Assembly: GCF_021191695.1 (NCBI RefSeq)
Contig: NZ_JAIWPT010000007.1
Span: 62,001-126,000, forward strand
Reading direction: 5' to 3'
From: Proluteimonas luteida
GTDB taxonomy: Bacteria > Pseudomonadota > Gammaproteobacteria > Xanthomonadales > Xanthomonadaceae
DNA: 64,000 nt
The notes under the pieces were generated by a model, which was not told where the DNA came from, ran no database searches, and worked only from the letters and a program-made list of their open reading frames with translations. This document shows, piece after piece, positions 21,966 through 42,548 of the stretch (position 1 is its first letter; every line of letters starts with the position of its first letter). Both the position numbers and the translations under genes were made by a program.

Positions 21966-24977
<3,012 letters not shown>

Positions 24978-27032: not shown

Positions 27033-27728
27033 ATGGAAAACGCATCGATGACGGACATGGGAATTCCCGACGTTGCACTGGTCGACAACACCGAGCAGCG
27101 CACCCCGCTGGTCCTGGTGCTCGACTGTTCGGGCAGCATGGGCGGCCAGCCGATCCAGCAGCTCAACGAGGGCCTCAAGCTGCTGGAGCAGGAGCTCAGG
27201 GACGACGTGATCGCGGCCAAGCGCGTGCGCGTGCTGGTGGTCACCTACGGCGGCATGGACACGGCCGACGTCGCCGGCGAGTGGTGCGATGCGATGGACT
27301 TCTCGGCGCCCGCGCTGAAGGCCAGCGGCACCACGCCGATGGGCCGCGCGGTGGAACTTGCGCTCGACGAGATCGAGGACGAGAAGGCGCGGTTCCGCGC
27401 CGCCGGCATCGCCTATACCCGGCCATGGCTGTTCCTGATGAGCGACGGCGTGCCCACCGACCCGTGGGAGGCGGCCGCCGGCCGCTGCCACGACGCGGAG
27501 GTGGCGAACAAGGTCGCGGTGTTCCCGATCGCGGTCGGCGATGCCGACGTCGAGGTGCTGGGCCGCTTCAGCCGCAACGGCGAGCGCGGGGTCAAGCGCC
27601 TGCAGGGGCTGCAGTTCCGCGAGCTGTTCCTGTGGCTGAGCGCGAGCATGCAGGTGGTCTCGCACTCCACGCCCGGCGGGCAGGTGCAACTGCCGTCGAC
27701 CGACAGCTGGTCCCTCGCCCCGGTCTGA
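27033..27728 (+). CDS. TerY-like von Willebrand A domain protein
   Basis: A 231-residue soluble vWA protein. The MIDAS metal site is Asp31-x-Ser33-x-Ser35 in LDCSGSMGG, the Thr is in SGTTPMGRA, and the distal Asp is in FLMSDGVPTD. The family is the TerY group of tellurite-resistance-associated vWA proteins. With the next two genes it makes the TerY-P triad (vWA, PP2C phosphatase, kinase), known from comparative genomics and listed among candidate phage-defence systems. Its role is inferred as metal-dependent scaffold or substrate. An ATG at 27048 is an alternative start. Confidence 0.9.
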   Translation: MENASMTDMGIPDVALVDNTEQRTPLVLVLDCSGSMGGQPIQQLNEGLKLLEQELRDDVIAAKRVRVLVVTYGGMDTADVAGEWCDAMDFSAPALKASGTTPMGRAVELALDEIEDEKARFRAAGIAYTRPWLFLMSDGVPTDPWEAAAGRCHDAEVANKVAVFPIAVGDADVEVLGRFSRNGERGVKRLQGLQFRELFLWLSASMQVVSHSTPGGQVQLPSTDSWSLAPV

Positions 27729-27730
27729 CG

Positions 27731-28489
27731 ATGGCCTGGCACGTGGTGGCGGCCTCGGCGACGGGGCGCGCCCATCTCGATCGCGGGCAGCCCTGCCAGG
27801 ACGCGTTCGCGGCGGAAGTCGTCGACGGCGTGTTGGTCGCGGTGGTGTGCGACGGCGCGGGTTCGGCCGCGCATGCCGACGTCGGCGCACGCACGGTGGC
27901 TTCGGCCACGGTGCAGGCCCTGGCCGCGCGCCTGCGCTGGGGCAAGGACCTGCTGCGGGCCGATGCCGCGGCCGCGGGCGCGGCGTTCGGCGACGCGCTG
28001 GCCTCGGTGCGCGGTGGGCTGGAGGCGCAGGCCGCCGCGGCGCACCACGACCTGCGCGACTACGCCTGCACCGTGGTGGGCGTGGCTGCGGGCGCGGCCG
28101 GCGGCTGGCTGTTCCACATCGGCGACGGCGTCGCGGTGGTCGAGTCGGCGCAGGCGCCGGCACTGGTGTCGCGGCCGGACAACGGCGAATACGCCAACGA
28201 GACCTACTTCCTGTCCGGGCCGCAGTGGCGCGAACGCCTGCGCCTGACCCGGATCGCGGAGCCGGCCACGCAGCTGGCGCTGATGAGCGACGGCGCCCAG
28301 GCCTTCGCCATGGCGCGCGGCGACGGCGGGCTGTATCCGCCGTTCATCGACCCGGTGGCGCGCTACCTGCGCGGGGTCGACGCGGCGCAGGGCGCGCGCG
28401 CGCTGCAGGCGACGCTGGCCGATCCGCGCACCGACGCGATCACCGGCGACGACAAGACCCTGCTGCTGGCATGGCCGGAGCGGGGCTAG
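27731..28489 (+). CDS. PP2C-family Ser/Thr phosphatase of the TerY-P triad
   Basis: A 252-residue metal-dependent phosphatase. Metal-binding acidic residues are in GQPCQDAFA and VVCDGAGSA near the N-terminus, MSDGAQAF in the middle, and TGDDKTLLLA at the end, the order expected for PP2C. There is no membrane segment. It starts two bases after the vWA stop, so the two are co-translated. It should reverse phosphorylation by the kinase encoded next. The vWA protein is a plausible shared substrate, by inference. Confidence 0.9.
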   Translation: MAWHVVAASATGRAHLDRGQPCQDAFAAEVVDGVLVAVVCDGAGSAAHADVGARTVASATVQALAARLRWGKDLLRADAAAAGAAFGDALASVRGGLEAQAAAAHHDLRDYACTVVGVAAGAAGGWLFHIGDGVAVVESAQAPALVSRPDNGEYANETYFLSGPQWRERLRLTRIAEPATQLALMSDGAQAFAMARGDGGLYPPFIDPVARYLRGVDAAQGARALQATLADPRTDAITGDDKTLLLAWPERG

Positions 28490-28570
28490 GCGCCATGCAC
28501 GCCGTCGTTGATCCTGCCGTGGCAGCCCCGGTCGCAGCGGCGCAGGCCGTCCACCGTCGCCGCGCCTGAC

Positions 28571-30016
28571 ATGCCCGCGCGCACCGGCAGCACCGTCCGC
28601 GACAGCCGCCAGCGCACGCTGCGGCTGGGCCGGCTGATCAAGAGCGGCGGCGCCGGCAGCGTGTTCCTGCTCGACGGCATGCCCGACGAGGTGGTCAAGC
28701 TCTACCACCCGGGCAGCGATTTCGCGGTCTACGAGCGCAAGCTCGAGGCGATGCTGGCGTTGTGCCCGGACCTGCCGGACCGGCTCGAGCACGGCAACCG
28801 CTACGTGCAGATCGCCTGGCCGCGCGCCCTGGTCCACGATGCCCGCGGGCGCTTCGCCGGGTTCGCCATGCCGACCCTCGACATCGCCGCGACCAGCGAC
28901 CTGGAACACGTGCTGCAGGAGCGGCAGGCGCGTGCGGCCGGTTTGCCGACCGGCCTCGGCGCGAAGATGACCCTGGCCGCCAACCTGGCGACGCTGCTGG
29001 CGGCCCTGCACCGGCGCGGCCACTACGTCGTCGACCTGAAACCGCTCAACGTGCGCTTCTACCGCGAGTCGCTGTACATCGCGATGCTCGACTGCGACGG
29101 CTTCAGCGTGCAGGGCGAGGGCGAGCGCTTTCCCGCCGGGCAGGTCACGGTGGACTATCTCGCGCCCGAGTTCCAGCAGCGCGGCGTGCGGCCCGGGCAG
29201 GAGGCCGCGCAGGACCGTTTCGCGCTGGCGGTGGTGCTGTTCCAGCTGCTGAACTCGGGCATCCATCCCTACAGCGGGCGCACCCGCGGCGAGGCGGCGC
29301 CGACCGACCTGCCGGGACGCATCCGCGCGCAGATGTACGCCTATGGCCTGCGCCCGCACCGCGACATCGCACCGGCGCCGGTCAGCGGCCATGCGGCGAT
29401 GCCGGAGCAACTGCGGCGGATGTTCGACCGCGCATTCTCGACGCGTCCGCAGGACCGGCCCGACGCGGCGCAGTGGGCATCGGCCCTGGTCGGCTACGCG
29501 CGCCGCGAGGGCGGCCTGCTGGTCGCCTGCCAGGCCGACGCCCAGCACCAGCATTTCGTCGGCCTGCCGTGCGCGGCCTGCGCGCGCGCCGAGGCGCTGT
29601 CGAAGGCCGGTCAGGCGAGCGCCACCCGCCAGCGCAGCGCGCAGCGGCGGGCGCGGCGCCAGAATGCCGGCAAGCGGGCCGCGGCACGCCAGCACGCGCC
29701 TGCCGGCACGCGCGCGCCGGCGCAACAGCCGCTGGGGCAGAGGCTCGCCCAGACACAGGCCCAGACGCTGGCAACGGCACCGACCGGGCTGGGGATGCGG
29801 CTGTTCATGGCGCTGCTTGGCCCGGTGCTGCTGGGATGGCTGCTGGGTTGGGGCATGCCGGCCTACCGTGCGTTCGACGCGGCTTCGCGCAGCGGGGGCT
29901 GGTGGGCGCTATGGGGGGATGCGCTGGCGCTGGCGTTCCAGGCTGGCGTGCTGCTGCTGGGGCTGCTGGTCTTCGTCGCGCTGGTGCCGATGGTGATCAT
30001 GAGCCGGCGGCCATGA
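28571..30016 (+). CDS. Membrane-anchored Ser/Thr kinase with zinc finger
   Basis: A 481-residue protein kinase. Glycine loop GGAGS 26-30, ATP lysine Lys43 (VVKLYHP), catalytic loop VVDLKPLN 153-160, metal-binding DCDGF 174-178, and APE at 198-200. After the kinase domain come a probable zinc knuckle (Cys320, His326/328, Cys334, Cys337), a basic Arg/Ala/Gln linker, and two transmembrane helices (about 408-428, 448-476). Such a kinase-plus-finger layout fits the TerY-P triad; the membrane anchor is notable. An 81-base gap from the phosphatase gene contains a 24-codon reading frame (28495-28569) ending one base before this ATG. TTG 28508 is an alternative start. Confidence 0.88.
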   Translation: MPARTGSTVRDSRQRTLRLGRLIKSGGAGSVFLLDGMPDEVVKLYHPGSDFAVYERKLEAMLALCPDLPDRLEHGNRYVQIAWPRALVHDARGRFAGFAMPTLDIAATSDLEHVLQERQARAAGLPTGLGAKMTLAANLATLLAALHRRGHYVVDLKPLNVRFYRESLYIAMLDCDGFSVQGEGERFPAGQVTVDYLAPEFQQRGVRPGQEAAQDRFALAVVLFQLLNSGIHPYSGRTRGEAAPTDLPGRIRAQMYAYGLRPHRDIAPAPVSGHAAMPEQLRRMFDRAFSTRPQDRPDAAQWASALVGYARREGGLLVACQADAQHQHFVGLPCAACARAEALSKAGQASATRQRSAQRRARRQNAGKRAAARQHAPAGTRAPAQQPLGQRLAQTQAQTLATAPTGLGMRLFMALLGPVLLGWLLGWGMPAYRAFDAASRSGGWWALWGDALALAFQAGVLLLGLLVFVALVPMVIMSRRP

Positions 30017-31818
30017 AGTGGCTTGTCGGCATCATCGCGGTGCTGCTGCTGGCCGTGGTGGGCATGCCGCTGCTGGGCTACCTGTCGATGCTGCCGTTCG
30101 CGCTGCTCGAGCGCATCGGCGACTGGTTCTCGCCGGCGTACTTCAGCGACGGCCAGCGCGCGTTCCGCACCGGCCTGGTGCTGGGTGGCGCGGTGTCGGT
30201 GCTGTCGCTGCTGTGGGTGGCCGCCAAGGACACCAGCGCGACCTACCTGTGGTCGGCGGTCGGTGTGTCCATCGTCCTGCTGTTGCTGGGCGTCACAACC
30301 GCGCCGGAATCGCCAGCGCAGGTGGCCGAGCGCAATGCGCGCTGGGCGCGCGCGCAGCGGGTCGAGTCCCCCGCGGCCACCGCCAGGCCGTCCTGGGCGG
30401 CGCATCTGGACCAGTCCGAACGCCGCATCGGCGAGATCGCGACTGCGTCGGCGCGCGGCCAGGACGCGCGGGTCCAGGCATTGTGGGAGGAAATGGCCGC
30501 CGCCGCGGCGCAGCGGCCGTCGCGGCGCCGCGACGCCACGCGCTACAACGCGGCCCGCTCGCAGTATCTGGAACAACGGCGGGCGATGGCCGGCCAGCGC
30601 GATGTGGAGGCGCTGTTCGCCAGACGCGAGGCACTGCGCGGGATGGTCGAGGCCGATCCTGCCGCCGACGGCGCGCTGCAGGAGCTGGCGCACATGGAGC
30701 TGACCGAAATGCGCCTAGCCCTGATCGGCCGTCGTGCCCCCGAGCAGGCCGACGAGCTGGCCGGGATCCTCAGCGGACGCTCTCCGGAAGCGCTGCTGGA
30801 TTCGGCGCGCACGCTGCTGCTGCAGGCGCTGGCGGTCAATCCCGAGCGCCGGCCACTGTGGGGCAGCTACGCCATCACCCTGGTCGACAGCGACGCCGAG
30901 GCCGCACTGGGCGCGATGATCCTGTCGTTGCCGCCGGCGGACGACAGCTTCGCGCAGCTCGCGGCGGCGCAGCTGGATCTGAGCATGTTCGCCTACCCGC
31001 GGGCGACCCGCGATCGCTGGCGCATCCTCAGGGCGCGTGCGGAGCTGGCGCACGCCAGCGCTCGGGGCGCGGATGTCGAGGCGCGAACCAGGGAGAGCGC
31101 CGAGGAAGTGCTGCCTGCGGCCGGCTGGCTGGAAGAAGGGACCGGGTTGCGACGGCACGGGCCGGCAAGCCGGGTTCCGGATGGACGACGTGCCGGTTCG
31201 GATCCAGGGGTGCAGGTCGAGGTGGATTTCGTGCAGGCGGGGATCGTGGAAAGCACGCGCCGGTTGCCGGAGACCCCGCGAACCCACCCGGGGCGGTATC
31301 CGCTCACCCTGGCACTGGACGTGGCCCCCTCGGGCGATGTGGTCGAGGTGCTGGTCGAGACGTCCTCGGGCGACATGGCATTGGATACCGCCGCGCGCGC
31401 GGCCGGGCTTTCCTGGCGCTTTGCGGCGAGCGAGGCGGGTGCGCGCCGCCGCGTGGAGGTGGTCTTCACCGGTGCGGAGACGACGCCCACCGTGGCGGCG
31501 GACCTGCATTCGTCCCGCGCGGCCGGCGGCGGCCACGGCCTGCTGGAGAAGATGGTCCGCGACGCGATGCGGACCAATCCGCCGCGCTACCCGCCCGCGG
31601 CGGTGCGCGAGGGCATCGAGGGCACGGTGCTGCTCGACATCGAAGTCGCGGGCAACGGCGAGATTGAGCGGATCGTCGTGGCCGAAAGCAGCGGACACCC
31701 GCTGCTCGACGATGCGGCCGTGCGCGCGGCGCGCAGGTGGCGGGTCCACCCCGGCGCTGCGACCAGCGATGTCGACGTCGTGCGCATGCGCGTGCCGGTC
31801 GACTTCAGGATGTACTGA
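30013..31818 (+). CDS. Membrane protein with two TonB-like C-terminal domains
   Basis: A 601-residue protein, coupled to the kinase by an ATGA overlap. Three N-terminal helices (about 3-30, 52-71, 78-98) are followed by a long helical, Ala/Arg-rich periplasmic stretch (about 100-390) with TPR-like spacing. Two TonB-C-like domains come next: one at about 405-485 (RYPLTLALDVAPSGDVVEV) and a better one at about 515-601 (NPPRYPPAAVREGIEGTVLL, then DAAVRAARRWRV). No ExbB, ExbD or Pro-rich spanning region is present, so energy transduction is not assured. It is a fourth partner that may connect the triad to the envelope. Confidence 0.8.
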   Translation: MKWLVGIIAVLLLAVVGMPLLGYLSMLPFALLERIGDWFSPAYFSDGQRAFRTGLVLGGAVSVLSLLWVAAKDTSATYLWSAVGVSIVLLLLGVTTAPESPAQVAERNARWARAQRVESPAATARPSWAAHLDQSERRIGEIATASARGQDARVQALWEEMAAAAAQRPSRRRDATRYNAARSQYLEQRRAMAGQRDVEALFARREALRGMVEADPAADGALQELAHMELTEMRLALIGRRAPEQADELAGILSGRSPEALLDSARTLLLQALAVNPERRPLWGSYAITLVDSDAEAALGAMILSLPPADDSFAQLAAAQLDLSMFAYPRATRDRWRILRARAELAHASARGADVEARTRESAEEVLPAAGWLEEGTGLRRHGPASRVPDGRRAGSDPGVQVEVDFVQAGIVESTRRLPETPRTHPGRYPLTLALDVAPSGDVVEVLVETSSGDMALDTAARAAGLSWRFAASEAGARRRVEVVFTGAETTPTVAADLHSSRAAGGGHGLLEKMVRDAMRTNPPRYPPAAVREGIEGTVLLDIEVAGNGEIERIVVAESSGHPLLDDAAVRAARRWRVHPGAATSDVDVVRMRVPVDFRMY

Positions 31819-32025: not shown

Positions 32026-32063
32026 GCCCTCACCCCAACCCTCTCCCGCGTGCGGGAGAGGGG
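32026..32063. repeat. CTCTCCCGC-type interspersed palindrome
   Basis: CCCTCACCCCAACCCTCTCCCGC continues into its inverted arm GCGGGAGAGGG (stem 32039-32049 with 32052-32062). It lies in the 307-base gap between the convergent ends of the TonB-like gene and the M2 peptidase gene, where it may act as a bidirectional transcription stop. The rest of the gap (31819-32025) shows no feature. Confidence 0.8.
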
Positions 32064-42455: not shown

Positions 42456-42548
42456 CCCTCACCCCACCATCGGCGCCGCCGATGGTCCCCCCCTCTCCCG
42501 CGTTGCGTGAGAGGGGCGGCGGTGTCTCCCGCCGGGCGGCGGGAGACG
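42456..42548. repeat. Composite of three consecutive hairpins
   Basis: CCCTCACCCC is followed by ACCATCGGC/GCCGATGGT (42467-42487), a CCCTCTC/GAGAGGG stem (about 42493-42516) and GTCTCCCGCC/GGCGGGAGAC (42525-42548). The first part is the same interspersed family as at 32026. It fills the gap between convergent DUF423 and D,D-carboxypeptidase genes and may stop transcription from both sides. Confidence 0.85.

Follow-up and report, generated by a model that had tools for sequence, protein, structure and literature searches.

The question raised by this locus is what a gene for a membrane protein with TonB-like domains does beside a vWA–PP2C–kinase triad. In the stretch of Proluteimonas luteida DNA analysed here (64,000 nucleotides, referred to as the window, and part of a contig in a 4.12-Mb genome), four consecutive open reading frames (ORFs) on the forward strand, at 27033–31818, encode a vWA protein, a PP2C phosphatase, a Ser/Thr kinase and a 601-residue membrane protein. 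The operon is probably, at moderate confidence, a transmembrane vWA–PP2C–kinase switch of the TerY-P or YegL–PphC–YegI type, with the fourth protein as its periplasmic sensor subunit. The best reading of the fourth protein is as the sensor half, with a gene of its own, of a receptor kinase. This split-receptor reading is preferred over that of an added accessory protein because the kinase polypeptide of the Burkholderiales includes a matching module. The features of the locus are as follows.

27033–27728, forward strand: TerY/YegL-like vWA protein, 231 amino acids (Pfam VWA, 40.4 bits; alignment)
27731–28489, forward strand: PP2C phosphatase, 252 amino acids (Pfam PP2C_2, 156 bits; alignment)
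28571–30016, forward strand: membrane-anchored Ser/Thr kinase, 481 amino acids (Pfam Pkinase; catalytic and knuckle residues)
29528–29581, forward strand: zinc knuckle C-x5-HxH-x5-CxxC, kinase residues 320–337 (alignment)
29789–29857, forward strand: kinase membrane helix 1, residues about 407–429 (hydropathy)
29945–30001, forward strand: kinase membrane helix 2, residues about 459–477 (hydropathy)
30013–31818, forward strand: fourth gene, 601-amino acid membrane protein, proposed periplasmic sensor subunit (Pfam TonB_C; homologues at loci L087, L088 and L075)
30013–30016, forward strand: ATGA overlap of the kinase stop and the fourth-gene start (sequence; NTGA in all four split operons)
30022–30303, forward strand: three N-terminal membrane helices, within residues 4–97 (hydropathy; AlphaFold)
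30373–31140, forward strand: TPR-like helical region, residues 121–376, predicted to be periplasmic (AlphaFold helices; Foldseek TPR matches)
31303–31470, forward strand: first TonB_C-like domain, degenerate, residues 431–486 (22.2 bits alone; model fold)
31579–31809, forward strand: second TonB_C domain, canonical, residues 523–599 (71.6 bits; Foldseek)

TerY-P is defined (PMC11090510) by a vWA protein, a PP2C phosphatase and a Ser/Thr kinase with a zinc ribbon. The vWA protein of the window is TerY-like, the motif DxSxS...T...D of its metal ion-dependent adhesion site (MIDAS) being intact in the alignment with E. coli YegL, to which it is 46% identical over 212 amino acids; its translation possibly starts at an ATG at 27048 instead of 27033. 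The PP2C gene begins 2 bp past the vWA stop codon, that is, the phosphatase lies beside the vWA gene as in TerY-P, and its product has the conserved acidic residues and 30% identity to E. coli PphC. The kinase domain scores 26.6 bits against Pfam Pkinase, below the cut-off of 31.7, and the catalytic lysine, DLKPxN and DCDGF are all intact in the alignment. The knuckle residues C320, H326, H328, C334 and C337 are invariant in all 20 aligned kinases. Thus the kinase carries the zinc-ribbon sequence of TerY-P, with zinc binding predicted, but here the knuckle is not the C-terminal end. The sequence-only reading, which had seen a TerY-P-like triad in this gene order, is borne out by the Pfam matches and by the MIDAS, catalytic and knuckle residues. 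It had also placed two C-terminal membrane helices after the knuckle, and hydropathy together with the invariant knuckle agrees. The likeness to known TerY-P triads consists of the same three proteins, the C-HxH-CxxC knuckle after the kinase and the intact MIDAS. The differences are that the window kinase runs on into membrane helices, followed by a separate gene for a periplasmic-type protein, and that no ter, CoCoNuT or restriction gene is recognised in the direct flanks of the triad.

The ATGA overlap of the fourth gene with the kinase gene, noticed earlier, is present in the sequence. The profile search that was to be applied to all four proteins gave Pfam matches for the vWA, PP2C and fourth proteins and a sub-threshold one for the kinase. 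The whole fourth protein scores 86.5 bits with Pfam TonB_C and 91.8 bits with NCBIfam tonB_Cterm. Two TonB_C domains had been claimed. The second, C-terminal one passes the profile and is matched by Foldseek to TonB C-terminal domains (probability 0.99–1.00, E 0.017–0.16). The first fails the Pfam cut-off of 24.6 bits when taken by itself, and is backed by its counterpart in the L087 protein (28.9 bits) and by a low-confidence strand-strand-helix-strand fold in the AlphaFold model. The model begins with three long helices (residues 2–39, 46–73 and 76–95); a helical region comes next, and then two units of strand-strand-helix-strand. The best Foldseek TPR match of the helical region has E 0.009; no TPR family is found in the fourth protein by Pfam. 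The earlier proposal of envelope anchoring is supported, with three N-terminal helices in the fourth protein rather than one anchor; the location of its long C-terminal region in the periplasm is predicted. The genome itself contains 12 TonB_C matches at E ≤ 0.001.

The fourth gene is retained beside the triad in other species, as the sequence-only reading would have it. We call a triad close if the kinase is at least 48% identical to that of the window and is accompanied by vWA and PP2C. The close triads found in the Xanthomonadaceae come from three genera, being those of the window, L075 (genome G033), L087 (G181) and L088 (G337). All four have beside them a fourth gene with an alignable N-terminal part, and all four have a 4-bp NTGA overlap between the kinase and the fourth gene. 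Hence the suggestion that the fourth gene is private to this genome is rejected. The fourth proteins are poorly conserved, with 27–40% identity, and differ in their TonB_C content: two domains in the window, one in L087, none in L088, while the L075 protein is cut by a contig edge. With zero to two TonB_C domains among the homologues, a dual TonB domain is neither a hallmark of the system nor a constant of the fourth gene. A TonB_C fragment in G033 (L035) was considered as the missing end of the L075 gene and rejected, since ORFs resembling ExbB and ExbD come after it, the arrangement expected of a true TonB gene. By the hydropathy cut-off, the window and L075 fourth proteins have three N-terminal helices each, L087 two and L088 one; the kinases of the window, L075 and L088 have two C-terminal helices each, and that of L087 one. 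Two further close kinases, L089 (G337) and L076 (G033), have no vWA, PP2C or fourth-gene matches at their loci.

More broadly, the kinase is thinly distributed (all counts include the window's own genome). Among 61 relatives 13 match at E ≤ 0.001, most of them distant. In the genus there are matches in five of 52 genomes at E ≤ 1e-15, the close ones being the window's genome and G033. The figures are four of 299 genomes for the order (E ≤ 1e-30), 11 of 369 for the class (E ≤ 1e-15) and, with kinase residues 1–344, two of 299 for the phylum (E ≤ 1e-30). The window's genome yields a single match to the kinase at E ≤ 1. Of the matches listed for the fourth protein in the 61 relatives, those in G033 alone extend outside the TonB_C region, and the first 350 residues of the protein have no match in plasmids at E ≤ 0.01. 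The kinase is matched in 43 plasmid records, all at less than 60% identity and none covering 80% of the kinase, and among PDB sequences by weak generic kinases only.

The main new finding comes from the Burkholderiales. A scan of genome contigs produced 19 loci, one from Cupriavidus (L010), 17 from Janthinobacterium and one from a Luteimonas metagenome-assembled genome (L013). The vWA and PP2C genes are directly upstream of the kinase in 18 of them, the exception being Luteimonas. The 18 Burkholderiales kinases (L010–L012 and L014–L028) belong to the same triad and are 52–55% identical to the window kinase over the alignment. Each is a single polypeptide formed by the kinase, the zinc knuckle, a transmembrane helix and a TPR-like part, with a TonB_C or TonB_C-like part in 17 of the 18. 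The parts that are split in the window, with two TonB_C-like domains, are thus together here, with one such domain. Among the 20 aligned kinases, 17 match TonB_C at E ≤ 0.1 and 16 match a TPR family; the three lacking a TonB_C match include the window's own kinase and L013. In Cupriavidus the TonB_C domain scores 46.5 bits, above the cut-off, at residues 703–765, after one transmembrane helix seen by hydropathy. A custom TonB_C profile, built from 33 domains of the window's own and same-genus genomes (including the window's second domain, but no kinase and not L087), gives 53.9 bits for Cupriavidus and 39.4 bits for L087; at E ≤ 0.01 it matches 11 of the 17 Janthinobacterium kinases with 10.6–22.3 bits, the other six showing no match. 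The AlphaFold model of the C-terminal 334 residues of the Cupriavidus kinase (mean predicted local distance difference test score, pLDDT, 74.9) has helix pairs followed by strand-strand-helix-strand, and its Foldseek matches in the PDB are TPR and designed helical proteins, one of them below E 0.001. When the fourth proteins and the C-termini of the Burkholderiales kinases are compared as profiles, the TonB_C part gives probability 87 and E 3.6e-6, and the TPR part alone gives 58.5 and E 9.6e-5. A hidden Markov model (HMM) of the fourth proteins' TPR part finds three fused kinases at E ≤ 1.1e-4, compared with 0.21 for the best shuffle. The proposed sensor module is encoded with the kinase, fused or overlapping, as expected for the proposed group of TPR–TonB_C receptor kinases, although the L088 fourth protein lacks TonB_C. 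The fused form in other bacteria points to the cell envelope as the place of what the operon senses.

Two side observations concern these loci. In Janthinobacterium L011, L014 and L026, the kinase is directly followed by a gene, or a pair of genes, with repeats of a YYPNGK-like motif (by eye, similar to MORN/YwqK). The Luteimonas locus (L013, 6001–8984, on the same contig as L076) contains a second close kinase, about 61% identical, with a transmembrane helix and an unrecognised C-terminus. It is overlapped by 4 bp by an ORF of 353 amino acids, whose product starts with hydrophobic residues and is matched by no Pfam family, and there are no vWA or PP2C matches on the contig.

The nearest characterised triad is YegL–PphC–YegI of E. 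coli. All three proteins are homologous to those of the window, the kinases with 28% identity over the kinase and knuckle. The C-terminus of YegI consists of membrane helices and then a long stretch that lacks TonB_C and in which helix-hairpin-helix is matched weakly (HHH_5, 20.1 bits, below its cut-off of 27); the window kinase has no HHH_5 match at E ≤ 1. In the kinase-domain tree with 31 rows, the branch of the window is separated from the YegI-type kinases with support 100/100, and this split stays 100/100 in a 27-row tree made without four long rows (L090, L093, L094, L095); long branches are flagged in both trees, which include seven of the 18 Burkholderiales kinases. The window, L075 and L087 form a group (95/94 with 31 rows, 80/93 with 27), whereas L088 groups with L089, apart from them. 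The YegI-type rows have C-termini that appear cytosolic; some of these show a helix-hairpin-helix match, either weak or recognised by eye. Thus the window kinase does not belong with YegI by branch and helix-hairpin-helix C-terminus together. According to PMC13232886, E. coli YegI is membrane-bound and is dephosphorylated by PphC, which we count in favour of a transmembrane switch.

In the window's own branch, the parts following the membrane helix are diverse: TPR–TonB_C, FGE-sulfatase (154 bits, L092, 1414–3501), the Ig-like Big_5 (42.3 bits, with weak FG-GAP parts, L094, 1393–3965), SH3_3 (weak, 18.8 bits, below the cut-off, L107), or several helices only. This variety suggests that the extracytoplasmic sensor may be exchangeable on a common kinase, with few examples and uncertain places in the branch. 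A similar layout is known from the PASTA receptor kinases (PknB/Stk1), which have a cytoplasmic Ser/Thr kinase, a membrane helix, an extracytoplasmic sensor and a partner PP2C. Their kinase family and sensor differ from those of the window, and Pfam finds no PASTA domain in the window's or the Cupriavidus proteins.

The following mechanism is proposed. The kinase would lie on the cytoplasmic face, held by its two membrane helices, and the fourth protein would be inserted by three helices and extend into the periplasm with its TonB_C domains and a TPR-like region for binding. A ligand or protein of the envelope, perhaps a stretch of peptide like the TonB box, would bind the TPR/TonB_C part, and the membrane helices, by way of a putative contact between kinase and sensor, would relay the binding inward to the kinase. 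The kinase may then autophosphorylate, or act on the vWA protein or another target. PP2C would reset the switch, and the vWA protein would be a MIDAS-dependent adaptor or a target. The partner of the TonB_C domains may be TonB boxes, peptidoglycan or something else.

Several observations weigh against the split-receptor reading. The L088 fourth protein has no TonB_C and the L075 gene ends at a contig edge; moreover, the helix counts are lower in the L087 kinase (one) and in the L087 and L088 fourth proteins (two and one). The TonB_C match of Janthinobacterium L011 is 17.8 bits, below the Pfam cut-off, and no TonB domain is among the best 50 Foldseek matches of the Cupriavidus model. The link between the split and fused forms through the TPR part appears weak: with the HMM of the fused TPR parts, the fourth proteins do not stand out from shuffled sequences (E 0.13 for L088, 0.18 for the best shuffle), and those of L087 and L075 rank lower still. 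The L013 C-terminus shows no significant similarity to the fourth proteins in the profile comparison (probability 1.4). The split kinases are not recovered as one clade in either tree. Finally, the fourth-protein model is poor (mean pLDDT 61.5, four sequences in the alignment) and has no Foldseek match in the PDB below E 0.001.

A more specific version of the receptor reading, which we consider unlikely, is that the kinase monitors how the outer membrane is working. The TonB_C domains would bind the TonB boxes of transporters that are loaded, or of phages or toxins in transit through them, and report the traffic to the cytoplasmic switch, the sensor being exchangeable among relatives for a sulfatase-modifying-factor-like, Ig-like or SH3-like one.

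Signalling in the outward direction would be expected if the fourth protein were a TonB-type energy transducer or a TonB competitor, and the triad switched its action on outer-membrane transporters. The C-terminal domain favours this: it is a canonical TonB_C in the C-terminal position typical of TonB, is 50% identical to a TonB-like ORF of 225 amino acids from a genome of the same genus and 48% to L001 of the window's own genome, and keeps the YP motif of TonB. However, TonB has a single N-terminal helix with an SxxxH motif for ExbB–ExbD. Residues 1–100 of the fourth protein form three helices and contain no histidine, thus no SxxxH, and a TPR-like region stands in place of the TonB spacer; the likeness to TonB is in the C-terminal domain matched by Foldseek. 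Further, ORFs resembling ExbB and ExbD (by eye), which align with L001, come after the TonB-like gene at L035, and none is recognised beside the fourth gene; hence a role as the main TonB is unlikely. The absence of TonB_C in L088, its degenerate form in L087 and the fused form, which ties this domain to a kinase, also speak against a transducer, and we give this explanation a low probability.

Still less probable is an anti-phage TerY-P module with the membrane protein as an accessory or effector. TerY-P is reported to be active against T7-like phages (PMC7699616) and to accompany Type II and III-A CoCoNuTs (PMC11090510), and the patchy occurrence of the kinase, matched in the five genomes of the genus mentioned above, two of them closely, fits a defence gene. 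At the locus, though, the earlier link to phage defence finds no support. In PADLOC the vWA, PP2C and fourth proteins have no match at E ≤ 1 (a search with no positive control and uncertain coverage of TerY-P), and the kinase matches only PD-T4-6 (2.1e-8), mad6 and MkoA. The direct flanks contain an MFS transporter and an M2 peptidase, then min genes (by eye), with no defence gene recognised there. The upstream MFS gene is also upstream in L075, with 72% identity, so both genomes have the triad at one and the same site. A defence role is possible, and nothing found at the locus points to it.

Phage databases gave unnamed PHROGs families plus one generic serine-threonine kinase family, and one record of a phage collection, an unverified metagenomic scaffold (MT836238.1). 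This record, labelled as a phage scaffold from human faeces, contains a vWA–PP2C–kinase triad (L104, 5365–8289) whose kinase ends in several hydrophobic stretches; its other ORFs look bacterial by eye, and the label may be wrong.

It is very improbable that the fourth gene stands here by chance, or as a local neighbour, and plays no part in the triad: the low conservation of the fourth proteins would agree with it, but the 4-bp overlap, the presence in all four close triads of three genera and the fused equivalent in the Burkholderiales count against it.

Elsewhere in the window there are two near-palindromes of 24 bases. One, at 22698–22721, lies in a glycine dehydrogenase frame (gcvP, by eye) on the reverse strand, where the stretch 22681–22870 presumably adds about 40 in-frame residues relative to GcvP, which would fit the insertion of a palindromic repeat. 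The other, at 32039–32062, follows the M2 peptidase gene; a near copy of 27 bases (93%) is at 42491–42517, and these are perhaps similar to repetitive extragenic palindromic elements.

The three-gene switch is known, and its coupling to a separate or fused putative periplasmic sensor appears new. In the literature searched we found no description of a TerY-P/TonB or membrane form or of a TonB_C–TPR–kinase fusion, with an earlier mention possible in the founding TerY-P or primary YegI/PphC papers. As to the signal sensed by such triads, a metal-sensing switch is put forward as a hypothesis (PMC11090510), and no condition is defined under which expression of yegI and pphC is promoted in E. coli (PMC13232886). 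The branch with a periplasmic sensor offers a direct handle, as the sensor may be expressed, its ligand sought and the response of the kinase measured. TonB_C on a receptor kinase would, if true, connect protein phosphorylation with transport across the outer membrane in an unusual way.

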